Below are positions 7,846-46,701 of a stretch of DNA of 64,000 bases, one piece after another. The stretch lies in assembly GCF_022761035.1 (NCBI RefSeq), contig NZ_JAKWJP010000004.1, forward strand, positions 372,001 to 436,000, given 5' to 3'. This DNA is from Microbacterium sp. SS28 (GTDB lineage: Bacteria > Actinomycetota > Actinomycetes > Actinomycetales > Microbacteriaceae). The notes beneath the pieces are model-generated. The model was not told the DNA's origin. It saw only the letters and a program-made list of their open reading frames with translations, and did no database searches. The translations under genes were made by a program, and so were the position numbers. Numbering within the stretch: position 1 is the stretch's first letter; each line of letters starts with the position of its first letter.

Positions 7846-9075
7846 GTGACTTCTCCCTCCCGTCCGCTCTGGCGTGGGAGGGCCCTCGCACTCGTCGGCA
7901 TCGTCCTGCTGGCCTTCTCGCTGCGGTCGGCCGTGGCATCCCTTTCGCCGATCCTCGACCACGTCGCGGTCGACTTCGACGTGCCCGCGTGGGCGATCGG
8001 GCTCATCGGCACGGCGCCGCCCGTCTGCTTCGCGATCTTCGGCATCCTCACGCCGCAGTTCGAGCGCCGACTCGGCCTCGAGCGGCTCGTCGTGGTCGCG
8101 CTCGCGGTCGCCGCGTTCGCGATGATCGCGCGCGCCCTGGCGGTCGACGGACTGACGCTGCTGCTCGGGACGGCGCTCATCTTCGCTGCGGTCGGCGTCG
8201 CGAACGTGCTGCTTCCGCCCCTCGTGAAGAAATACTTCCCCGATCGGATCGGCCTCATGACTGCCGTGTTCTCGACGACGATGGCGGTCTCGACATTCCT
8301 GCCGCCGCTCATCGCCGTGCCGGTGGCGGATGCCGCGGGCTGGCGGCTCTCGCTGGGACTGTGGGCGGTCTTCGCGCTCGCGGCGCTGGGCCCGTGGATC
8401 GCGCTGCTCGTGCGGTCACGCAGCAACGGGGCGGACGAAGCCATCGAAGGCGCGAGCCCCGCCGTCTTCGGCCGGCTCTGGCGGCTTCCGCTCGCCTGGG
8501 CGCTCACGGTGTCGTTCGCCGTCTCGTCGACGATCGCCTACACCTGCTTCGCCTGGCTGCCGACGATCCTCGTCGACATCGCGGATGTCACGCCCGCCGC
8601 CGCGGGGGCCCTGCTGTCCCTCTTCGCGGCGATGGGCCTTCCCGCGTCGCTCCTCGTACCCGTGCTCGTCGCGCGCCACCGGATCGTGCGCTCCCTCTAC
8701 ACCGTGGCGGTCGTCGCGGGTCTCGCGGCCGTGGCGGGGCTGCTGCTGGCCCCGGCGGCCGCGCCGTGGCTGTGGGTCGCGCTGCTCGGCATACCGCCGC
8801 TGCTCTTCCCGCTCGTGCTCGTGCTGCTGGGGCTGCGCACGCGCACGCACGAGGCATCCGTCGCTCTCAGCGGGTTCGTGCAGAGCATCGGCTACGCGAT
8901 CGCGGCCGTCTTCCCGCTCGCCATCGGACTTCTGCACGATGCGACCGACGCGTGGGTCGTGCCGCTCCTTATCCTCGCGGCCGTCGTCGTGGCCGCGATC
9001 CCGGCGGGGTTCGTCGTGGCGCGCCCGCACACCGTCGAGGACGAGTGGGAGCGCCGGCACGGCGCGTGGGCATGA
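7846..9075 (+). CDS. MFS transporter, CynX/NimT-type
   Basis: A 409-residue inner-membrane carrier with about twelve hydrophobic helices. The early LLAFSLRSAVASLSPIL and later VANVLLPPLVKKYFPDR and TAVFSTTMAVSTFLPPL are typical of the CynX/NimT (cyanate/nitroimidazole) subfamily, which usually exports or takes up small organic anions; the substrate here is unknown. The start was placed at GTG 7846, seven bases after TAGGCT (7833-7838), rather than at an upstream frame start that adds only unrelated basic residues. It is monocistronic and ends at a hairpin shared with the converging PfpI gene. Confidence 0.88.
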   Translation: MTSPSRPLWRGRALALVGIVLLAFSLRSAVASLSPILDHVAVDFDVPAWAIGLIGTAPPVCFAIFGILTPQFERRLGLERLVVVALAVAAFAMIARALAVDGLTLLLGTALIFAAVGVANVLLPPLVKKYFPDRIGLMTAVFSTTMAVSTFLPPLIAVPVADAAGWRLSLGLWAVFALAALGPWIALLVRSRSNGADEAIEGASPAVFGRLWRLPLAWALTVSFAVSSTIAYTCFAWLPTILVDIADVTPAAAGALLSLFAAMGLPASLLVPVLVARHRIVRSLYTVAVVAGLAAVAGLLLAPAAAPWLWVALLGIPPLLFPLVLVLLGLRTRTHEASVALSGFVQSIGYAIAAVFPLAIGLLHDATDAWVVPLLILAAVVVAAIPAGFVVARPHTVEDEWERRHGAWA

Positions 9076-9077
9076 GA

Positions 9078-9108
9078 CTGCCCGGCCCGTGGCGAGCGGA
9101 CCGGGCAG
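9078..9108. terminator. Hairpin between converging MFS and PfpI genes
   Basis: CTGCCCGG (9078-9085) pairs with CCGGGCAG (9101-9108). It lies in the 45-bp gap between two converging stop codons and can serve both strands. Confidence 0.6.
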
Positions 9109-9120
9109 ACGGGGGACGGC

Positions 9121-9687
9121 TCAGGCGGTGACGCGGGCTCCTTCGAGCACGTCGATGAAGGCCTTCATCCAGATGCCGTTGTCGGGCCACGCGCGCGCCG
9201 TCACGAGGTTGCCGTCCACGACAGCGCCGCCGTTCTCGAACAGGCCGCCGGCCGTCTCGACGTCGATCGCGAGCTCGGGGTAGGCCGACGACGTGCGACC
9301 CTTCAGGACACCCGCCGCAGCGAGCAGGAGAGGACCGTGGCAGGTCGCCGCGACGGGGGAGTTCGCCTCGAAGAAGTGCCGCACGATGCGCTTGGCGTCC
9401 TCGTCGTTGCGGATGTACTCGGGCGCACGTCCGCCGGGCACGACGATTGCGACGTAGTCGGCGGGGTCGACGTCGGCGAACGCGACGTCGGCGTCCCACG
9501 CGTGGCCCGGCTTCTCGGTGTAGGTGCCGAATCCGTCGACGAAGTCGTGCACGACGAACTGCAGCTTGCGCTTGACGGGTGCGCCGATGTGCACTTCGTA
9601 GCCCGCCTCCTGCAGGCGGTGGTACGGGTAGAACACCTCGAGGGTCTCGGCGGCATCGCCGGTGAGGATGAGGATCTTGTCGGTCAT
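9121..9687 (-). CDS. DJ-1/PfpI-family protein
   Basis: A 188-residue class-I glutamine-amidotransferase-like protein (DJ-1/PfpI superfamily), covering proteases, glyoxalases, deglycases and stress chaperones. The Rossmann-like start KILILTGDAAETLEVFYPYH, the IVVPGGRAPEYIR strand and the nucleophile elbow ATCHGPLLLAAAGVLKG (Cys followed by His-Gly-Pro) are visible. ATG 9687 has GAGAGGAACC upstream. An IclR regulator is divergent over 113 bp and may control it. The exact activity cannot be read from sequence. Confidence 0.88.
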   Translation of the reverse strand: MTDKILILTGDAAETLEVFYPYHRLQEAGYEVHIGAPVKRKLQFVVHDFVDGFGTYTEKPGHAWDADVAFADVDPADYVAIVVPGGRAPEYIRNDEDAKRIVRHFFEANSPVAATCHGPLLLAAAGVLKGRTSSAYPELAIDVETAGGLFENGGAVVDGNLVTARAWPDNGIWMKAFIDVLEGARVTA

Positions 9688-9800
9688 GGTGGTTCCTCTC
9701 GTAGACGACCGTGTCTGCCACCAGCGTCGAGCCGCGCGGGCCCGCGCCGCGACATCCGTTCTCACGATGTGCGAAAGTCGCCGCGACATACACTGTCGCC

Positions 9801-10571
9801 ATGAGCGCCCCCACCCGCGATGCCGCGGGCATCCGTTCCGCCGACCGCGTGCTGCGGATCCTCGCCGAGATCGGCGCGACGCCCGACGGGCTGACGGCCG
9901 CCGAGCTGGGGGAGCGACTCGACCTCTCGACCGCGACGACGTACCGCCTGCTCGCGTCGCTGCAGACGCAGGACTACCTCGTGCGCGGCAGCGACGCCCG
10001 GTACATGCTCGGCCGGGCCGTCGACGGCCTCGGCCGCGCTGTGCGCTCGCAGCTCGTCGCGACGCCCACCGTGCGACGCATCCTCGAGGACATGCGCGAC
10101 GCGGCGCGCACGCCGGCCTACCTCACGGTCTTCCGCGGCGATGACATCGCCGTCGCGCACGTCGCCGAGTCGGCGGCGCATCCGAGGATCGGCCAGCTGC
10201 ACATCGGATTCGCGGATGCCGCACACGTGACGGCGTTCGGAAAGCTCATGCTCGCGGCGCGCGACGACGACGGCGTCCGCCGCTACCTCGAGCGGCACGG
10301 CGCCGCGGCCGTGACGTCGCGCTCCGTGACGAGCGAGCGGGCACTGCTGGAACAGCTCGACGACGTGCGGGCGCTGCAGATCGCGGTCGAGGTCGAGGAG
10401 TACATGCCCAAGCTCGCATGCATCGCCGCGCCCGTGAGGGCGCGCAACGGCCGGACAGTGGGCGCCGTGTCGCTCTCGACGACGGCCGATGACTTCGCGT
10501 CCCGCGCGCACGAGCTCGAGAGGATCGCGCGACGCGGCGCGTGGCACGTCTCGAGCAGCCTGCATCCCTGA
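9801..10571 (+). CDS. IclR-family transcriptional regulator
   Basis: A 256-residue regulator. The N-terminal winged helix (about 10-70: SADRVLRILAEIG, TAAELGERLDLSTATTYRLL) is followed by a GAF-like effector domain (about 85-250) with HIGFADAAHVTAFGKLMLA and CIAAPVRARNGRTVGAVSLS. ATG 9801 lies six bases after TACACT (9789-9794), the leaderless arrangement; a longer upstream frame adds no family sequence. It is divergent from the PfpI-type gene, its likely target. The effector is unknown. Confidence 0.9.
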   Translation: MSAPTRDAAGIRSADRVLRILAEIGATPDGLTAAELGERLDLSTATTYRLLASLQTQDYLVRGSDARYMLGRAVDGLGRAVRSQLVATPTVRRILEDMRDAARTPAYLTVFRGDDIAVAHVAESAAHPRIGQLHIGFADAAHVTAFGKLMLAARDDDGVRRYLERHGAAAVTSRSVTSERALLEQLDDVRALQIAVEVEEYMPKLACIAAPVRARNGRTVGAVSLSTTADDFASRAHELERIARRGAWHVSSSLHP

Positions 10572-10620
10572 CGGGCATGCCTCCCAGCAGTCACGCGAGA
10601 TGGCTTGCTACCGTCGGAGC

Positions 10621-36289: not shown

Positions 36290-36376
36290 CGACCAGCCGA
36301 ACCACGGTTCCCGTCCAGCCGAACCGCGGTCCCCGAGCTTGCCGAAGGGTCGTATGCCGCCGCTTCGACGAGCTCA
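36290..36376. repeat. REP-like inverted repeat cluster at the end of the ECF operon
   Basis: Two tandem copies of a roughly 22-bp CCAGCCGAACCRCGGTYCCC word are followed by GAGCTTGCCGAAG and, in inverse orientation, CTTCGACGAGCTC (11 of 13 pair). The stop codon of the S-component gene (TGA at 36374-36376) lies within the last copy. The hairpin can terminate the ECF operon. Confidence 0.65.
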
Positions 36377-36967
36377 GCGACCGTCCTGCGTGGGCACCGT
36401 CCCGGCAGGGGCCGCGACGGCCTTCGGCCGGCGGCGCGCGAGGCGTGCGACTCCTGCGCGCTCGAGGCGATCGGCCACGAGGATGCCGAGAGCCGTTCCT
36501 GCGACGGCGCTCACGAGGACGAGCGCGAAGAACCCGATCTGCACCGCGAGCGTCATGGAGCCCAGGTCGAAGGAGGCCCACGCGAGGATCGGGTAGACCG
36601 CGCCGACGGCGAGAGCGCCCGCGTAGTGCTGCCACGTCTTCCAGAAGCGGTACGCGACGATGAGGAACGGCAGCTCGGCGAAGAACGCCCACCAGAGGTT
36701 GGTCGCGACGCTCGCGAAGCCGTAGCCCGAGAAGGGCACGATCACGAGGCCCGAGATGAGCCCGACGAGCAGGCCCGCGAGAGGGCGCTGCAGCAGGCGC
36801 AGCGCGACGACGGCGGGGAGCAGCCAGAGTCCCGCGATCGCGACCGAGAAGAACGGCAGCGCCGCGAACAGCGCCGTCGAGACCCAGTTCGCGGCGACGA
36901 GGAGCGCCCCGCCGGCGACGCCGATCGCGGCGCACGTCAGCAGGTACGCGGTCGTGACGCGGCTCAT
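36374..36967 (-). CDS. ECF transporter S component, YkoE-like (distal gene of operon)
   Basis: A 197-residue membrane protein with five to six helices, the substrate-binding subunit of an energy-coupling-factor importer. It begins YLLTCAAIGVAGGALLVAAN, has the conserved SGYGFASVATNLWWAFFAELPFLI stretch, and ends in a Pro/Ala tail. It shares LLTCAAIGVA and RAGVAR with the second S protein at 40832-41383. Its start overlaps the SIP gene stop by four bases (ATGA). In YkoE-type systems the substrate is thiamine or its pyrimidine, but the operon's iron box and SIP gene point to an iron-related ligand here. Confidence 0.85.
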   Translation of the reverse strand: MSRVTTAYLLTCAAIGVAGGALLVAANWVSTALFAALPFFSVAIAGLWLLPAVVALRLLQRPLAGLLVGLISGLVIVPFSGYGFASVATNLWWAFFAELPFLIVAYRFWKTWQHYAGALAVGAVYPILAWASFDLGSMTLAVQIGFFALVLVSAVAGTALGILVADRLERAGVARLARRRPKAVAAPAGTVPTQDGR

Positions 36968-37848
36968 GCGGCGACCTCCGTCGACTGCTGCTGGGCCTTC
37001 GGAGTGGGCGACGCGGCGCCGACGCGCCAGTAGCCGCAGAAGCTCACCCGATCCTTGTCGGCGCCGCGGTCGTTCACGAGGTGGCGGCGCGCGCCCGTCG
37101 GCAGCGCCTGCTCGCCCACGATGTACGCGTGGAACGGCGCAGCGGGAAGCTCGGCATCCGAAAGAGCGGTCAGCGCCGCGAGCGCCGGTTCGCCGGCCTT
37201 CGCGTCGTGGTCGCGGACGATCCACCGCACGTCGATGCCCTCGGGGTGTGCGAAGGGCAGGGCGTCCTCCTCGCTCGGCACCTCGACGATCGCGATGCCG
37301 ACGGCGTCCGCCGGAAGGCTCGCACAGATGCTCGCGACGGCCGGCAGCCCCGTCTCGTCGGCGACCAGCACGACGCGGTCGGTGCCGCGCTCGGGGTTGA
37401 AGGCGAGCCCCTCGTCGATCAGCACGACGCTCTCGCCCGGCGTCGCGGTTTCGGCCCAGCGTGATGCGGGGCCCGCTGTGCCGTCCGCGGCCGAGCCGTG
37501 CAGCACGAAGTCGACGTCGATCTCGGCGCCCTGCTCGCCCGTCGCGGGGCGGAACGCGCGTACGGAGTAGTTGCGCATGACGGGCCGCATGCCGTCCGGG
37601 ATGCGCAGGTAGCGCAGGTAGCCGAAGATCTTGTGGGCCTTCGCGGGCAGGCGCTCCAGGCCTTCGTCGCCGCCGAGCGGCAGGAAGATCCGGAACCACT
37701 GGTCGAAGCCCATCGGCCGGAATCGCTCGATCTCGCCGCCGCCGAGCGTGATGCGCATCCAGTGCGCAGAGAGACGCTCGGTGCGCAGCACCTGCAGGTG
37801 GACGAGCTCCTGCGTCTGCGGCTTCACCAGTCGGCTGCTGAGAGACAT
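36964..37848 (-). CDS. Siderophore-interacting protein (SIP/ViuB-type flavoreductase)
   Basis: A 294-residue cytoplasmic FAD/NAD(P)H-dependent ferric-chelate reductase. FAD-binding segments ERFRPMGFDQWFRIFLP and MRNYSVRAFRP precede FVLHGSAADGTAGPASRWAE and VLVADETGLPAVASICASLP. The C-terminus carries the family end FCGYWRVGAA. SIPs reduce Fe(III) bound to imported siderophores so that iron is released. It sits inside the ECF operon, 118 bp after the T gene and overlapping the S gene by ATGA, an unusual partner for an ECF transporter. AAAGGATCC is the ribosome site. Confidence 0.92.
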   Translation of the reverse strand: MSLSSRLVKPQTQELVHLQVLRTERLSAHWMRITLGGGEIERFRPMGFDQWFRIFLPLGGDEGLERLPAKAHKIFGYLRYLRIPDGMRPVMRNYSVRAFRPATGEQGAEIDVDFVLHGSAADGTAGPASRWAETATPGESVVLIDEGLAFNPERGTDRVVLVADETGLPAVASICASLPADAVGIAIVEVPSEEDALPFAHPEGIDVRWIVRDHDAKAGEPALAALTALSDAELPAAPFHAYIVGEQALPTGARRHLVNDRGADKDRVSFCGYWRVGAASPTPKAQQQSTEVAA

Positions 37849-37966: not shown

Positions 37967-38866
37967 TCACGCGAGACCCCACGGGAAGAAGAGCCAGAAG
38001 AGCAGAGTGGATGCCGCGAGGAACAGCACCGCGAAGACGGTGTCGCGCACGCGCCACGGCACGAGGTGCCGCTCGGTGCGATCGGGGTAGGCGCCGAAGG
38101 CGCGCGCGTCCATCGCGAGCGCGACGCGCTCGGCGTGCCGGATCGCACCCGCCAGGAGCGGCACGATGTACCCGCCCCAGCGCGCGATCGCGGCGAACGG
38201 CCCGCGCCCGCCATGGGTGCCGCGCACGCGGTGCGCCTGGCGGATGACCTCGAGCTCGTGCCCGAACCGCGGCACGAAGCGGAACGCCGCGAGCGCCGTG
38301 TATCCGATCCGGTACGGCACGCGCAGCTGCTGCACCATCGAGCGCGCAAGGTCGGGGCCCGTCGTGCTGAGACCCGAGATGAGCGACAGTGCCACGATCG
38401 CGGCGAGCCGCAGCGCCGTCGAGAACCCGATCTGCAGCATCCCGCCGTAGAGCGTCCACGACCCGATCTGCAGCACGACGACGCTCTGGTCGACGCGCGA
38501 CGGGTCGGTCCACACCGAGAAGCCGACGCCGATCGCGGCGACCGCGACGGGCAGTGCGACGAAGAGCATGAGGGCGAGCCGCCGCGTGAAGCGCACGCCC
38601 ACCAGCAGCACGGCGTACGCGAGGGCGACGAACGCGAGCGGGGTCGCGGCATCCCGGACGAAGACCAGCAGCACCATCGCGGGCGCCGGGCCCGCGAGCT
38701 TCGTGAGGGGATTGAGCCGGTACAGGAAGCGGACGGCGGACGCCGCCGGACCCTCGGCGTAGGGGTCGAGGGTCCCCACGCCTCCTCCAGGCGCCGCTGG
38801 CGCGGCCCCCGGAGCCTCTCGGCGCGTGGGCCCGTCCCCGCGCGACGTGCTCTCGAGCTGGGTCAT
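37967..38866 (-). CDS. ECF transporter T component (CbiQ/EcfT family)
   Basis: A 299-residue membrane coupling protein linking S proteins to the ATPase. An N-terminal polar stretch leads to LYRLNPLTKLAGPAPAMVLL, several helices, and the two C-terminal coupling helices with RQAHRVRG and ALAMDARAFGAYPDRT (the paired Ala-Arg-small motifs that dock on the ATPase). Its start overlaps the ATPase stop by ATGA, and it is transcribed with it. The spacer to SIP (118 bp) has several short CTCGCG dyads but no clear promoter. Confidence 0.92.
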   Translation of the reverse strand: MTQLESTSRGDGPTRREAPGAAPAAPGGGVGTLDPYAEGPAASAVRFLYRLNPLTKLAGPAPAMVLLVFVRDAATPLAFVALAYAVLLVGVRFTRRLALMLFVALPVAVAAIGVGFSVWTDPSRVDQSVVVLQIGSWTLYGGMLQIGFSTALRLAAIVALSLISGLSTTGPDLARSMVQQLRVPYRIGYTALAAFRFVPRFGHELEVIRQAHRVRGTHGGRGPFAAIARWGGYIVPLLAGAIRHAERVALAMDARAFGAYPDRTERHLVPWRVRDTVFAVLFLAASTLLFWLFFPWGLA

Positions 38867-40764
38867 GCCGCACCTGCCCCGGGAAGGTCCGCGAGCCGTG
38901 CGATGCGGGAGAGCTCGGGATGCCGCGTCAGCCCGTGCAGCGCGCGCCGCAGGGGCGGCAGCCGCAGGCCGGCGCGCTCGACGAGGTCGGCGTCGGCGAA
39001 GACGTCGGCCGTCGATCCCTGCGCGATGACGCGCCCCTCGGCGAGGACGACGGTGCGGTCGGCGTGCTCGGTCACGAGCTGCATGTCGTGGGTCACGACG
39101 AGGATCGTGGTGCCCTCGTCGTTGAGCTCGCGCAGCAGCCGGAGCAGCTCGTCGGCCCGGGCGCGATCCTGGCCGAACGTGGGCTCGTCGAGCGCGAGGA
39201 CGGGCGCGCCCGCGACGAGGGCCGTGCCCACGGAGAGGCGGCGCTTCTGGCCGCCGGAGAGCAGGAAGGGGTGGGATGCGGCCTTGGACGAGAGGCCGAA
39301 GCGCTCGAGCACGTGCTCGGTGCGCTCGCGCACCTCGGCGTCGGGCAGGTGCCGCAGCCGCAGGCCGTGGGCGAGCTCGTCGTACACGGTGTGGGCGATG
39401 AACTGGTGCTCGGGGTTCTGGAAGACGAAGCCGATGCGCGACGACAGGGTGCGGGCGTCGGCGCGCCCGACGTCGAGACGGTGTCCTGAGCCCGTCGAAG
39501 GGTCGCCGAGGTGCACCGTCCCGCGCGGCGGGGTCACGACGCCTGCGATCGCCTGGATGAGGCTCGTCTTGCCCGCGCCGTTTGCTCCGACGATCGCGAC
39601 GAACTCTCCTGCGTGGACGTCGAGGTCGATGTCGTGGAGAACGCGCGTGCGGCCGCGGTGGAGGGTGAGTCCGCGGACGGTGATCGCCGGGGTCGAGCCA
39701 CTCACGGTCGACGAGCCCGCTGCGGTCCTCGAGCCACTCACGGTGCCCGAGCCGGGGGCGGTCGCCGAGCATGCCGAGGGGTTGTGGTGCGACGCTTCGG
39801 CAGGCTCCGCGACGGGGTGTGGCCCGGCGGCCGGCGTGGGGCCGGCGGCAGAGGGAGCCTCGACCGCCTCGAGGGCGTCGTGAAGCTCGGCGGGCGTGAG
39901 CGGCAGGGGGTCGAGCGCGTAGCCGGCCGCCCGGAGGCGCAGGGCCGCGAGGGTCGAGGTCGGCAGCCACACGCCGAGGTCGTGCAGCTCTTCCGCGCGG
40001 CGGCGCAGCACGTCCCCGGCCGGGCCGTCGGCGACGAGACGGCCGTCGTGGTCGAGCACGACGACCCGGTCGACGAACCCGACGGCGGCGTCGAGGTTGT
40101 GCTCGACGAGCACGATCGCCCGGTCGCCGGCGGCCACGAGGTCGGCGAGCGCGGCATAGACCTCGTCGATGCCGCGCGGGTCCAGGTTCGCGGTCGGCTC
40201 GTCCAGGACCAGCAGCGGCGAGCCCATCGCGAGCGCACAGGCGATCGCCAGGCGCTGGCGGCCGCCGCCGGACAGCCGGTCGGGGTTCTCGCGCCGCCGC
40301 TCCCACAGCCCGACGCGGCGCAGCGCCGTCTCGGCGCGCGCGAGCACGTCGTCGACCGGCATCCGGAGGTTCTCGGGACCGAAGGCGACCTCGTCGAGGA
40401 CCGTGCCGGTGACGAGCTGGGCGTCGGGGTCCTGGAAGACCATCCCGACGCGCGTCGAAAGCGTCGCAACGGTCGCGGTGGACGTGTCGATGCCGTCGAC
40501 GAGCACCGTGCCCTCGACGGTCGCGGGGACGGCGTGCGGGATGAGCCCGTTCAGCGCGAGCGCGAGCGTCGACTTGCCGGATCCGCTCGGACCGAGGATG
40601 AGCACGACCTCGCCCACGCGCACCTGGAAGGTCGCCGCGGCGGGGGTCGCGGCATCCGCGCCCTCATGCGTGATCGCGAGATCCCGCACCGCGAGGAGCG
40701 GGGGTGCTTCGGCCTCCGCGGAGAGCGCGGCAGAGGTGTCGCGTCGCGGAGCGGTCACGGTCAT
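38863..40764 (-). CDS. ECF transporter fused double ATPase (EcfA-EcfA')
   Basis: A 633-residue cytoplasmic ATPase with two ABC domains in one chain, as in YkoD. Domain 1 (about 22-285) has Walker A LGPSGSGKST, signature RLSGGGRQR and LVLDEPTANLDP. Domain 2 (about 360-600) has VGANGAGKTS, FLLSGGQKRR and LALDEPTFGQDR. The linker (about 300-360) is a Ser/Gly/Thr-rich sequence created partly by a REP-like hairpin, and DPSTGSGH (421-428) is another translated REP copy. An iron box lies 30-48 bp before the start. It is followed by the T gene with ATGA overlap. Confidence 0.95.
   Translation of the reverse strand: MTVTAPRRDTSAALSAEAEAPPLLAVRDLAITHEGADAATPAAATFQVRVGEVVLILGPSGSGKSTLALALNGLIPHAVPATVEGTVLVDGIDTSTATVATLSTRVGMVFQDPDAQLVTGTVLDEVAFGPENLRMPVDDVLARAETALRRVGLWERRRENPDRLSGGGRQRLAIACALAMGSPLLVLDEPTANLDPRGIDEVYAALADLVAAGDRAIVLVEHNLDAAVGFVDRVVVLDHDGRLVADGPAGDVLRRRAEELHDLGVWLPTSTLAALRLRAAGYALDPLPLTPAELHDALEAVEAPSAAGPTPAAGPHPVAEPAEASHHNPSACSATAPGSGTVSGSRTAAGSSTVSGSTPAITVRGLTLHRGRTRVLHDIDLDVHAGEFVAIVGANGAGKTSLIQAIAGVVTPPRGTVHLGDPSTGSGHRLDVGRADARTLSSRIGFVFQNPEHQFIAHTVYDELAHGLRLRHLPDAEVRERTEHVLERFGLSSKAASHPFLLSGGQKRRLSVGTALVAGAPVLALDEPTFGQDRARADELLRLLRELNDEGTTILVVTHDMQLVTEHADRTVVLAEGRVIAQGSTADVFADADLVERAGLRLPPLRRALHGLTRHPELSRIARLADLPGAGAA
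39485..39505. repeat. REP-like word inside the ATPase gene
   Basis: CTGAGCCCGTCGAAGGG within this span is in frame and is translated on the minus strand as DPSTGSG in domain 2 between Walker A and the Q-loop. It matches the dispersed CTGAGCCTGTCGAAGG-type words common in this group of genomes. Confidence 0.6.
39767..39807. repeat. REP-like inverted repeat forming the inter-domain linker of the ATPase
   Basis: GAGCATGCCGAGG (39767-39779) and CTTCGGCAGGCTC (39795-39807) are inverted (11 of 13 pair) and are translated as part of the linker EPAEASHHNPSACSAT. Next to it GAGCCACTCACGGT occurs twice (39694-39707 and 39731-39744). Confidence 0.65.
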
Positions 40765-40793
40765 CCAAGCGGGGGAGGGCTACTGAGTCTCCC

Positions 40794-40812
40794 CTAACTT
40801 AGCCTGCCCTAA
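40794..40812 (-). promoter_or_regulatory. DtxR/IdeR-like iron box upstream of the ECF ATPase gene
   Basis: The minus strand reads TTAGGGCAGGCTAAGTTAG. The known DtxR/IdeR consensus is TTAGGTTAGGCTAACCTAA, so 14 of 19 positions agree, including the central AGGCTAA. It lies 30 bp before the ATPase start, within the expected promoter. Repression by Fe(II)-loaded DtxR/IdeR is the prediction. Confidence 0.65.
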
Positions 40813-40831: not shown

Positions 40832-41383
40832 TCAGCGCTGGGCGCCCCGCGCGACGCCCGCACGGCGCAGCGCCGCCCCGATGCCGAGGCCCGCCGCCGT
40901 CCATGCGACGGGTCCGAGGACCGCGACGGCGAGGTAGACGATCTGCGCCCACGGCGCGAGCGCCGACAGGTGAGCCGCGAAAGCCACGACGACCGCGACG
41001 AGCGCGCCGATGATGAGCGCCGAGATGAAGAAGCGCCAGGCCTGCCACACGCGGTAGCGAGTGAGCGCCGCGACGATCTCCTGGATGCCGCCGAAGAGGA
41101 TGGCCGTGCCGATGAACCGGAACGCCCACTGCGGAGCCATCGCGCTCGCGACGAGAGCCGCCACGACGTGCGAGATGAGGGCGACCCACGGGCGTCGGAT
41201 GAGCTCCTGCGCGATGATGCCCGGCAGGACGTGCGCGCCCAGGATGAAGCCGTACAGGATGGGCGCCGTCGCGAGGACGACGGGGGTCAGCCAGCCGGCG
41301 ACGCCTCCCAGGACTCCTGTCGCCACGCCGATCGCGGCGCAGGTGAGCAGGACGCTCGTCGAGAGCCGGGTCGAGGAAGGCAC
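40832..41383 (-). CDS. ECF transporter S component, YkoE-like (proximal gene)
   Basis: A 183-residue membrane protein with about six helices: VLLTCAAIGVATGVLGGVAGWL, LATAPILYGFILGAHVLPGI, FRFIGTAILFGGIQEIVAAL. It is paralogous to the S protein at the operon's distal end and lacks that protein's Pro-rich tail. GTG 41383 lies six bases after TACGCT (41390-41395 on the minus strand), so it has its own leaderless promoter, and the ATPase gene starts 67 bp downstream behind an iron box. Two S proteins with one A-T module suggest two related ligands. Confidence 0.83.
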   Translation of the reverse strand: MPSSTRLSTSVLLTCAAIGVATGVLGGVAGWLTPVVLATAPILYGFILGAHVLPGIIAQELIRRPWVALISHVVAALVASAMAPQWAFRFIGTAILFGGIQEIVAALTRYRVWQAWRFFISALIIGALVAVVVAFAAHLSALAPWAQIVYLAVAVLGPVAWTAAGLGIGAALRRAGVARGAQR

Positions 41384-41453
41384 CCGATCAGCGTAACCGC
41401 AGGCGTTATGGGTTTCTCATCTGAAGGCATTCCACCGGCCCGCGGACGCGCGC

Positions 41454-44067: not shown

Positions 44068-46701
44068 ATGCCGCTCACACTGCTGGATGCCGTGCCCCGC
44101 GGTGCGGATGCGGATGCCGCCTATGCGGGCTTCGTCGACTGGGCCCTGGACCGCGGCCTCACGCTCTACCCCGCGCAGGACGAGGCCGTCATCGAGATCG
44201 TGTCGGGGGCGAACGTCATCCTCTCGACGCCGACCGGCACGGGCAAGTCGCTCGTCGCGGTCGCGGCACACGCCTTCGCGCTCGCCCACGGCGGACGCAG
44301 CTACTACACGGCGCCGATCAAGGCGCTCGTGAGCGAGAAGTTCTTCGCCCTCGTCGACATCTTCGGCGCCGAGAGCGTCGGCATGGTGACGGGCGACTCG
44401 TCGGTCAACCCGGACGCGCCGATCGTGTGCTGCACGGCCGAGATCCTCGCGAACCTCGCGCTGCGTCAGGGGCCGGACGCCGCGGTCGACCAGGTCGTGA
44501 TGGACGAGTTCCACTACTACGGCGACCCCGACCGCGGCGGGGCCTGGCAGATCCCGCTCCTGCTCCTGCCGCGCGCGCAGTTCATCCTCATGTCGGCGAC
44601 CCTCGGCGACGTCGCGACGATCGCCGAGGACCTCGAGCGACGCACGGGCCGTCCCGTCGCGCGCATCACAGGAGTCGAGCGGCCCGTGCCGCTCAACTTC
44701 TCGTACGCGCGGACACCCGTGCACGAGACGGTCGAAGAGCTGCTGCAGACGGGGCAGTCGCCCATCTACATCGTGCACTTCTCGCAGGCGGCCGCGATGG
44801 AGCGGGCGCAGGCGCTGTCGTCGATCAGGATCGTGAGCCGCGAGCAGCGCGACGAGATCGCCGAGGCGATCGGCGGCTTCCGGTTCACGACGGCGTTCGG
44901 CCGCACCCTCTCGCGGTACGTACGCGCGGGCATCGGCGTGCACCACGCGGGCATGCTGCCCCGCTACCGCCGGCTCGTCGAGACGCTCGCGCAGCGGGGG
45001 CTCCTCCGGGTCATCTGCGGCACCGACACGCTCGGAGTCGGCATCAACGTGCCGATCCGGACGGTGCTCGTGACGGCGCTGTCGAAATACGACGGACAGC
45101 GGATGCGGCAGCTCAGCGCGCGCGAGTTCCACCAGATCGCGGGGCGTGCGGGTCGGGCGGGGTTCGACACGCACGGGAACGTCGTGGTCATGGCGCCGGA
45201 GTGGGAGATCGAGAACTCCGTCGCGCTCGCGAAAGCCGGCGACGACCCCGCCAAGCGCCGCAAGATCGTGCGCAAGAAGGCGCCGACGGGCGTCGTCAAC
45301 TGGGGCCTCGGCTCGTTCGAGCGTCTCGTGGAGGCCGAGCCCGAGCCGCTCGTGCCGCAGCTGCAGCTCACCGCCGCGATGCTCATCAACGTCATCGCGC
45401 GCGGCGGCGACGTGTTCGCGAACGTCCGCGCGCTCGTCCGCGACAACCACGAGCCCGCCGCCCGCCAGTTCGCGCTCGCGCGACGGGCGCTCGCGATCTT
45501 CCGCACGCTGCTCGCGGCGGACGTCGTGGAGGTGGATGCCGCGACCGGCGAGATCCGGCTCACGGTGGATCTGCAGCCGAACTTCGCGCTCAACCAGCCG
45601 CTGTCTCCGTTCGCGCTCGCCGCGATCGGCCTGCTCGACCCGGACGATTCCGCGGGCGCGGCATCCCGCCCGCCCTCTTCACCCGGACGATTGCACGATA
45701 TTCGGACCGATGAGGCGGATCCATCCGAATTCGGTGCAATCGTCCGAATGGCGGGGGGTTCGGGGAGCGCAGTGAAAAGCGCCGGCACTGGCCACTACGC
45801 GCTCGATGTCGTGAGCGTCATCGAGGCGACGCTCGACGACCCGCGGCCCGTGCTTGCGCAGCAGCAGTTCAAGGCGCGCGGCGAGGCCGTCGCGGCCATG
45901 AAGCAGGAGGGCCTCGACTACGACCAGCGGATGGAGGCGCTCGAGGAGGTCACGCACCCCAAGCCTCTCGAAGAGCTGCTCGCGCAGTCGTACGAGGTGT
46001 TCGCGTCGAGCCAGCCGTGGATCCGCGACTTCGAGCTGTCGCCCAAGTCGGTCGTGCGCGACATGTTCGAACGCGCGCTGTCGTTCTCCGAGCTCATCTC
46101 GCTCTATCAGCTCGCCCGCAGCGAGGGACTCGTGCTGCGCTACCTGAGCGACGCCTACCGTGCGATCCGCCAGACCGTCCCGGTCGAGGCGCAGACCTCC
46201 GACCTGCTCGACCTCGTCGAGTGGCTCGGCGAGCTCGTGCGGCAGGTCGACTCGAGCCTCGTGGACGAGTGGGAGGCGCTGATCAATCCGGTCTCGGATC
46301 CCGAGGCTCCCGTCGTGCCGCCCGCCCCGCCGTCCGTCCTGACGAACCGGCGCGCGTTCCTCGTGCTCGTGCGCAACGAGCTGTTCCGCCGCGTCCAGTT
46401 CGCGGCGCTGCAGAAGGACGACGAGCTCGTCGCGCTGGACCCCGACGTCGACTGGCCCGCCGCGCTCGACGCCTACTTCGAGGACCACGACGTGCTCCTG
46501 ACGGGAGGCCCGGCGCGGTCCCCGAGACTCGTGACGATCGATGAGACGGATGCCGCGGCATCCGGAATCTGGAAGCTCGAGCAGACGCTCGACGACCCCG
46601 CCGGCGACCACGACTGGCGCATCCGCGGCGAAGTCGACCTCGCGGCGTCGGAAGAGGCCGGAACCGCCGTCGTGCGGATCACGGAGGTCGTGCGGCTCTG
46701 A
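44068..46701 (+). CDS. Ski2-like DEAD/DEAH helicase with DUF3516-type C-terminus
   Basis: An 877-residue superfamily-2 helicase. Core motifs are LYPAQDEAVIEI, Walker A STPTGTGKSLVAV, TAPIKALVSEKF, DEFHYYGDP (DEFH for DEAH), LMSATLGD, GIGVHHAGMLPRYR, CGTDTLGVGINVPI and QIAGRAGRAGFD. The long C-terminal region resembles the DUF3516 domain of actinobacterial homologues. A 63-bp palindrome (45684-45746) is inserted in frame, giving the extra PGRLHDIRTDEADPSEFG segment. The start lies six bases after CAGACT (44056-44061). RecQ follows 97 bp downstream. Confidence 0.92.
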   Translation: MPLTLLDAVPRGADADAAYAGFVDWALDRGLTLYPAQDEAVIEIVSGANVILSTPTGTGKSLVAVAAHAFALAHGGRSYYTAPIKALVSEKFFALVDIFGAESVGMVTGDSSVNPDAPIVCCTAEILANLALRQGPDAAVDQVVMDEFHYYGDPDRGGAWQIPLLLLPRAQFILMSATLGDVATIAEDLERRTGRPVARITGVERPVPLNFSYARTPVHETVEELLQTGQSPIYIVHFSQAAAMERAQALSSIRIVSREQRDEIAEAIGGFRFTTAFGRTLSRYVRAGIGVHHAGMLPRYRRLVETLAQRGLLRVICGTDTLGVGINVPIRTVLVTALSKYDGQRMRQLSAREFHQIAGRAGRAGFDTHGNVVVMAPEWEIENSVALAKAGDDPAKRRKIVRKKAPTGVVNWGLGSFERLVEAEPEPLVPQLQLTAAMLINVIARGGDVFANVRALVRDNHEPAARQFALARRALAIFRTLLAADVVEVDAATGEIRLTVDLQPNFALNQPLSPFALAAIGLLDPDDSAGAASRPPSSPGRLHDIRTDEADPSEFGAIVRMAGGSGSAVKSAGTGHYALDVVSVIEATLDDPRPVLAQQQFKARGEAVAAMKQEGLDYDQRMEALEEVTHPKPLEELLAQSYEVFASSQPWIRDFELSPKSVVRDMFERALSFSELISLYQLARSEGLVLRYLSDAYRAIRQTVPVEAQTSDLLDLVEWLGELVRQVDSSLVDEWEALINPVSDPEAPVVPPAPPSVLTNRRAFLVLVRNELFRRVQFAALQKDDELVALDPDVDWPAALDAYFEDHDVLLTGGPARSPRLVTIDETDAAASGIWKLEQTLDDPAGDHDWRIRGEVDLAASEEAGTAVVRITEVVRL
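45684..45746. repeat. 63-bp palindromic element inserted in frame in the Ski2-like helicase
   Basis: Outer arms CGGACGATTGCAC (45684-45696) and GTGCAATCGTCCG (45734-45746) are perfect inverted repeats; inner arms ATTCGGA (45700-45706) and TCCGAAT (45724-45730) extend the stem. Its length, 21 codons, keeps the frame. ACCCGGACGATT at its left edge is also present 43 bp upstream (45638-45649). It is less GC-rich than the flanking gene. Confidence 0.8.

Follow-up and report, generated by a model that had tools for sequence, protein, structure and literature searches.

Gene organization of the locus

The window, by which we mean the whole stretch of 64,000 nucleotides of Microbacterium sp. SS28 DNA that was analysed, carries on its minus strand an ECF importer locus in the order S1 – DtxR/IdeR-like box – A – T – SIP – S2. 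Its features, in the direction of reading of that strand, are the following:

41390-41395 (-): -10 element TACGCT of a leaderless promoter, 12 nt 5' of the S1 GTG (from TANNNT conservation and controls)
40832-41383 (-): S1, an intact ECF S component of 183 aa with a GTG start, PF09819 (YkoE family; Pfam, BLASTP)
40794-40812 (-): DtxR/IdeR-like iron box TTAGGGCAGGCTAAGTTAG between S1 and A, which includes a TANNNT (TAAGTT; consensus match)
40783-40797 (-): second box-like unit TTAGGGGAGACTCAG, overlapping the first box and 15 nt downstream of it (direct reading)
38863-40764 (-): A, two fused ECF ATPase domains (NCBIfam TIGR04520 and TIGR04521, both over cut-off)
37967-38866 (-): T, a CbiQ-type ECF transmembrane component (Pfam) with a 4-nt overlap with A (ATGA)
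36964-37848 (-): SIP, a siderophore-interacting flavoprotein of the ferric-chelate reductase family (PF04954 and PF08021)
36374-36967 (-): S2, a second ECF S component with an ATG start, PF09819 (Pfam, BLASTP)

The SIP protein contains both the FAD_binding_9 and the SIP domain of Pfam, and its solved relatives are 2gpj, 8c4l, and IrtA. NCBIfam returned no match for S1 and a chance match only for S2. The coupling of S2 with SIP, proposed in a preliminary description of this DNA, is borne out, because the S2 ATG overlaps the SIP TGA by 4 nt (36964-36967); an identical overlap recurs in 41 of the 68 named relatives measured. The gap between T and SIP is 118 nt in the window, which makes a further promoter possible there.

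Upstream of S1 and on its strand, the first gene with Pfam support encodes a pirin (PF02678, PF05726; 41530-42546, -), and a DEAD-box helicase with DUF3516 lies at 44068-46701 (+). A short CCTTCGACRRGCTCAGG-like element, which looks like a dispersed repeat, was found three times against 0.12 expected: an exact copy lies within the A gene at about codons 422-427, in the second ATPase half (39485-39501), and two copies with 2 mismatches lie at and behind the end of S2 (36362-36378 and 36332-36348).

S1 and S2 are paralogs with a predicted YkoE fold

S1 and S2 align by BLASTP at 32% identity over 179 aa (E 4e-24), so the paralogy that had been claimed for them is not a matter of chance, and the strings LLTCAAIGVA and RAGVAR that had been singled out as shared are present exactly in both proteins. 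Structure prediction had been suggested as a way to compare the two binding pockets; it gave the YkoE fold for both proteins, and the pocket contrasts described below come from alignment to YkoE. The models, each of a single chain, reached a mean pLDDT of 89.2 (S1) and 91.5 (S2), and each had one solved match at E ≤0.001, namely the thiamine S component YkoE (5edl), with a Foldseek E of 8.4e-05 and a TM of 0.81 by query for S1, and an E of 4.9e-05 and a TM of 0.75 for S2. VIA-align placed the S1 model on YkoE with a Z of 20.3; the next rows were far lower (Z 9-11.5) and comprised other S components as well as methane and ammonia monooxygenase chains. In phmmer searches of solved structures, S1 found YkoE alone (E 0.064), and S2 found none up to E 10.

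An S-protein tree of 130 rows separates S1, S2, and canonical YkoE, with SH-aLRT values of 95 for the S1 set including L052, 96 for a 32-row S2 set, and 97 for YkoE. The tree excludes four broken or odd S2-like rows, and a dozen distant S2-labelled rows fall outside the S2 set on long branches, where their placement is uncertain. Labels follow the better BLAST score, except that L052, labelled S2 by this measure, stands among the S1 rows in the tree and was relabelled. The window's own genome holds a third PF09819 gene (L001), which lies under a TPP riboswitch and carries W, Q, and E at the positions of W49, Q95, and D131 of YkoE; its riboswitch and residues together identify it as YkoE.

In a search of the genus, 259 of 295 genomes matched S2, and 113 of the 295 did so strongly (E 8e-36 or better, two of these being broken genes); the weaker matches were S1-like where examined. 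From 139 relatives found, 80 named S2 loci were kept, mostly from Microbacterium and otherwise from Agreia, Herbiconiux, Schumannella, Pseudoclavibacter, Agromyces, and Leucobacter, which are likewise Microbacteriaceae; loci labelled Stenotrophomonas or Planococcus are probably mislabelled or contaminated records. The order S1, A, T, SIP, S2 is present in 62 of the 80, the other 18 having other or truncated layouts. SIP accompanies S2 in 69 of the 80 and is missing beside it in L035, L038, L233, L235, and four of five loci from a second family of the order, so that S2 needs no linked SIP. At two loci with long hits for A, T, and S1, the distal genes are broken: in L108 (G151) SIP and S2 are both cut short, as if jointly eroded, and in L106 (G432) S2 is in two pieces. 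The S2-SIP arm therefore seems to have been lost in some lineages.

A probable single A-T module for two S proteins

Group I ECF modules are, by the published rule, dedicated to one S component (PMC7755397, excerpt). The preliminary description had nevertheless assigned two S proteins to one A-T module here, and comparison of relatives supports that assignment. In a tree of T, loci with S1 only, with both S genes, and with S2 only interleave, for which reason A-T looks like one module family: the starred branches force at least 7 changes of the state "both", and after label correction there are 13 changes over 67 rows (L052 relabelled; L090, L108, L041, L064, L224, and L225 left out, L090 having no S1 in the stretch fetched, though its genome has a second match in the genus search). 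The T nearest to that of the window belongs to L100 (G350), whose genome has a single S match, an S1. Across 12 genomes other than that of the window, each had one close T at 45-68% identity, and any second T was at ≤33%.

The linkage of the S genes varies as well. G133 and G079 have an A-T without a neighbouring S gene and S genes elsewhere in the genome. Six lone Agreia S2 genes each have their own box, and in G077 and G140 such a boxed, lone S2 is far from an S1-A-T operon. The lone S2 of G093, also separate from A-T and S1, has no box at ≤5 mismatches, and S1 is separated from an A-T-S2 unit in G587, G573, and G142. Single-S genomes include the S2-only G118 and four of five second-family genomes, with one match each, as well as many S1-only Microbacterium genomes with one S match. 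Judged by gene content, the pattern appears to be that of shared group II modules, set on a group I chassis. As a separate observation, L041 (G127) has three S-like genes, one of them divergent, beside one A-T-SIP, with a 3-mismatch box between (8824-10596), and is possibly a module with three S subunits.

Sequence identity between S1 and S2 is unevenly distributed. Over 23 same-locus pairs it peaks at 69% in residues 9-24 (helix H1, first half) and at 60% in the C-terminal nine residues, and these two peaks coincide with the LLTCAAIGVA and RAGVAR strings. The remaining helical segments reach 18-39%, and the N-terminus 16%. Within-family identity in the first half of H1 is 75% and 81%, whereas S1 or S2 compared with YkoE gives only 31-33%. 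For YkoE, contact with T has been proposed to run through helix H1 (PMC5037267, excerpt). We infer that a common helix-1 face may dock both S proteins on one T.

S1 has a predicted leaderless promoter of its own

The leaderless promoter that had been ascribed to S1 proved to be highly conserved. TACGCT lies 12 nt 5' of the GTG, and TANNNT occurs at exactly -12 in 86 of 87 distinct Microbacterium-type S1 upstream regions, the window's included, with the last one having it at 13; the start codon is GTG in 83 of these 87 genes. The same position holds a TANNNT in 0/82 T, 0/82 SIP, 1/101 S2, and 6/87 A genes, and before 13 of the 3385 ATG/GTG triplets of the window. Column counts over the 87 S1 upstream regions revealed no conserved -35 element. 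In high-GC bacteria, leaderless genes are recognized by a TANNNT about 12 nt 5' of the start (PMC3160421, excerpt).

Four relatives (L156, L159, L189, and L108) have a predicted opposite-strand gene in the S1-A gap (by Pfam, MFS and acyltransferase-like in L156 and L189), which should make S1 an independent transcription unit in these relatives. The window's S1 and A are 67 nt apart, and a terminator scan found none between them; read-through from the S1 promoter could thus supply a basal level of A-T-SIP-S2.

A predicted iron box accompanies A-T

The box was scored against a 19-bp DtxR/IdeR consensus, from which the window site differs by 5 mismatches. It is the sole site at ≤5 mismatches in the 64 kb (20 mononucleotide shuffles of the 64 kb gave 3 such sites together) and lies between S1 and A, in agreement with the earlier placement of the S1 promoter upstream of an iron box. 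The deviation from consensus is about equal to that of published putative IdeR sites of Arthrobacter (PMC2991359, excerpt). A tandem resembling the first and second box units is seen in near relatives such as L188, L094, and L209.

Among loci with S2 and SIP, a box stands upstream of A in 62/82 at ≤5 mismatches, 79/82 at ≤6, and 82/82 at ≤7, with shuffle controls of 2, 3, and 29 of 820. At ≤5 mismatches, 48 of the 62 full-order loci have a box; all 48 have it in the S1-A gap, and none has one in the 200 nt that precede S1. Microbacterium-type loci without S2 also have it upstream of A (10/11 at ≤6), and it therefore marks A-T rather than S2 alone. Other-genus operons with S2 downstream have a box upstream of A in 5/5 cases at ≤5 mismatches, as against 1/22 at ≤6 for other-genus loci without S2 downstream; in the second family of the order, all five loci fetched read box-A-T-S2, one of them with SIP. 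At ≤5 mismatches, no box was found upstream of T (0/123) or of SIP (0/89). Within 150 nt upstream of S1, a box at ≤7 mismatches occurs in 0/37 Microbacterium regions and in 12/24 from other genera (shuffle controls, 9/370 and 6/240). By these matches the box would seem to follow A-T widely, and within Microbacterium S1 alone appears to lie outside it.

The window's genome has two PF02742 (DtxR-type) genes. Its search for near-consensus boxes gave no site within 3 mismatches, and a search with the window's own box variant gave one other place, L242 (C12:746808). By sequence, the gene downstream of L242 presumably encodes a cytochrome oxidase subunit rather than an iron-uptake protein. At L232 and L238, SIP genes with no A, T, or S nearby have DtxR-like boxes upstream.

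These data divide the earlier proposal of a constitutive S1 and an iron-controlled S2. S1 is indeed without an iron box, and A-T-SIP-S2 lies behind a DtxR-like one, but the absence of a box need not mean that S1 is constitutive. Further, S1 needs A-T, whose promoter carries the box, so import through S1 may also be iron-limited; and since boxes are frequent at S1 in other genera, S1 may be iron-related by ancestry.

Binding pockets and candidate substrates

Thiamine contacts in YkoE are W49, E77, Q95, D131, and Y46, and a Q95W mutation abolished thiamine binding (PMC5037267, excerpt). We compared these positions, by alignment to YkoE and not by distances, in 61 S1, 31 core S2, and 25 YkoE rows, the more distant best-hit S2 rows being excluded. 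At Q95, the YkoE rows have Q (23) or E (2), whereas S1 has I, F, or V in 61/61, and S2 has W in 28/31 and F or Y in the other 3. At D131, an E, D, or N is found in 23/25 YkoE rows; S1 has V in 42/61, another uncharged residue in 18, and E in 1, and S2 has A, T, or S in 31/31, with an acid or amide in none. The W49 position is W in 31/31 S2 rows, and H or Y in 61/61 S1 rows. E77 is uninformative on thiamine, because this position is S in 20/25 YkoE rows. The W49/Q95/D131 ligand set of YkoEDC is thus broken in both families, Q95 being lost in every S1 and S2 row, and with Q95 and D131 replaced thiamine appears an unlikely substrate for either protein. No riboswitch was detected in the window at the Rfam gathering score; one, a TPP riboswitch, reached this score at L001.

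Two histidines, H51 and H72, are present together in 34/61 S1 rows, all of the window's genus, and in the other 27 position 51 is Y or H and position 72 is never H. The pair may at most hint at haem or a metal chelate. The siderophore synthetase PF04183, the sole siderophore synthesis route searched, occurs in 5/20 S2 genomes (the window's included) and in 1/20 S1-only genomes, and haem oxygenase in 18/20 and 14/20, respectively; both sets of counts are too weak to settle the substrate. Since PF04183 is absent from 15 of the 20 S2 genomes, both own and foreign siderophores are possible. The neighbours of unlinked S1 genes led nowhere as a clue to the substrate; by sequence they presumably belong to polysaccharide-export and sugar-nucleotide genes.

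We favour the reading, at a probability of about two in three, that a group I-type ECF module is shared by two S subunits, of which S2 would serve a ferric chelate that is reduced by SIP, and S1 either another substrate or the same one at a basal level. It is highly improbable that S1 or S2 is still the thiamine/HMP subunit of a plain YkoEDC: the Pfam family and fold of both S proteins would suit this, but Q95 is lost in 61/61 S1 and 31/31 S2 rows where Q95W abolished binding in YkoE (PMC5037267, excerpt), D131 is matched by an acid or amide in 1/61 and 0/31 as against 23/25 in YkoE, and a separate, TPP-riboswitch-controlled YkoE is encoded in the genome, whereas the window has no riboswitch at gathering score. 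Nor is there much to be said for S proteins that act jointly, as a hetero-oligomer or with one as a regulator, rather than as alternatives; 62 of the 80 named S2 loci do keep both, but related A-T modules exist in S1-only and S2-only genomes, and the S genes are unlinked in several relatives.

That S1 or S2 carries haem, with SIP in some other role, is an unlikely option, which the H51/H72 pair of S1 and the frequency of haem oxygenase in S2 genomes favour; however, the difference in haem oxygenase between the genome sets is small, and the solved proteins of the SIP family are named ferric-siderophore reductases or utilization proteins. Rather less doubtful, though still on the unlikely side, is a single class of iron compound for both subunits, with S1 as the ancestral, basal form and S2 as a high-affinity or wider-range copy for starvation. 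The boxes at the S1 promoter in 12/24 other-genus regions (6/240 in shuffles, ≤7 mismatches) and the box-controlled A-T that adjoins S1 in Microbacterium loci without S2 (10/11, ≤6 mismatches) speak for it, whereas the pockets differ consistently, with H/Y in S1 and W in S2 at W49 (61/61 and 31/31) and I/F/V in S1 and W in 28/31 S2 rows at Q95, and Microbacterium S1 has no box in front (0/37, ≤7 mismatches).

Proposed mechanism

Under the favoured reading of a shared module, the two YkoE-fold S subunits would dock on one YkoEDC-like A-T via the helix-1 face, and a separate leaderless promoter would keep S1 transcription independent of iron. When iron is sufficient, a DtxR/IdeR-type repressor would cover the box at the A promoter, with the TANNNT inside it, and A-T-SIP-S2 would stay low, with read-through from the S1 promoter as its only possible supply. 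As iron falls, A, T, SIP, and S2 would rise together, and S2 would come to outnumber S1. S2 would then capture a ferric chelate, that is, a siderophore of the cell's own or of foreign make, whose import A-T would drive, and SIP, a member of a cytosolic flavoprotein family, would reduce the imported chelate in the cytosol, while S1 would let the motor go on serving another substrate, or the same one at a basal level. The scheme is anchored in the gene order, the paralogy and fold of the S proteins, the positions and conservation of promoter and box, and the related A-T modules of S1-only, S2-only, and two-S loci; to these it adds, by inference, that one T docks both S proteins, that a repressor binds the box, that S2 takes a ferric chelate, that SIP reduces it, and a role for S1.

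Relation to known systems and implications

YkoEDC of Bacillus subtilis (thiamine/HMP, group I, 5edl) has the S fold, the Pfam family, the CbiQ-type T, and the dual ATPase in common with the system described here, which differs from it by two S subunits per module (two linked S genes in 62 of the 80 S2 loci, where YkoEDC has one dedicated S), by the loss of Q95, and by an iron box and SIP in place of a TPP riboswitch. The ATPases of group II ECF importers are encoded by two separate genes; in the window there is a single fused gene. Group II systems, in which one EcfAA'T works with several S subunits such as FolT2 and PanT (PMC7755397, excerpt), likewise have several S genes per module, some of them unlinked, but the window's system has a fused ATPase and S proteins of the YkoE family, and its sharing is deduced from genomics. 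Such sharing between S subunits is unusual for group I ECF importers.

The closest system in print is LhaSTA, the haem importer of Staphylococcus lugdunensis, which is also an ECF system and is iron-regulated, as the window's system may be to judge by its DtxR-like box sequence; in the excerpt of its description (PMC7299338), LhaSTA is under Fur control and has one S, haem as its demonstrated substrate, and no SIP gene. SIP itself resembles the ferric siderophore reductases of its type (ViuB and the SIP domain of IrtA) in its PF04954 and PF08021 domains and its similar solved chains, and is set apart from them by its partnership with an ECF importer. The sifABCDE genes of Bifidobacterium were considered and rejected, as their permeases are FtsX-like (PMC5449479, excerpt). 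Among the open-licence papers searched, no title or abstract described such an operon or an ECF siderophore importer. The main text of a study of the Corynebacterium glutamicum DtxR regulon contains no mention of cobalt, ykoE, thiamine, energy-coupling, or siderophore-interacting (PMC12327846, excerpt), and the excerpt of PMC7397307 mentions ykoE solely in a co-expression table. A survey of Microbacterium genomes, again in excerpt (PMC7438953), reports few siderophore genes yet unspecified siderophore-interacting proteins, and desABCD for desferrioxamine synthesis without the related transporters desEF; ECF or cobalt-type transporters are unmentioned in its main text.

In summary, we tentatively suggest, at somewhat less than even odds, that a group-I-type ECF importer can act as a shared, iron-switched motor, in which what is imported would change with the proportions of two competing S subunits, one made from a leaderless promoter without an iron box and the other from a DtxR-controlled promoter; the S1 of Microbacterium would lie outside iron control and, in most lineages sampled, bear a two-histidine pocket. 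Genomes with S1 only, S2 only, or both would offer a natural case of sharing and a clean test of S competition for the motor, and the conserved separation of the leaderless promoter from the iron box provides a putative two-promoter switch that is open to direct test. If true, an ECF route for ferric chelates would be a second iron substrate class beside the haem of LhaSTA and would help explain siderophore uptake in Microbacterium without desEF (PMC7438953, excerpt).
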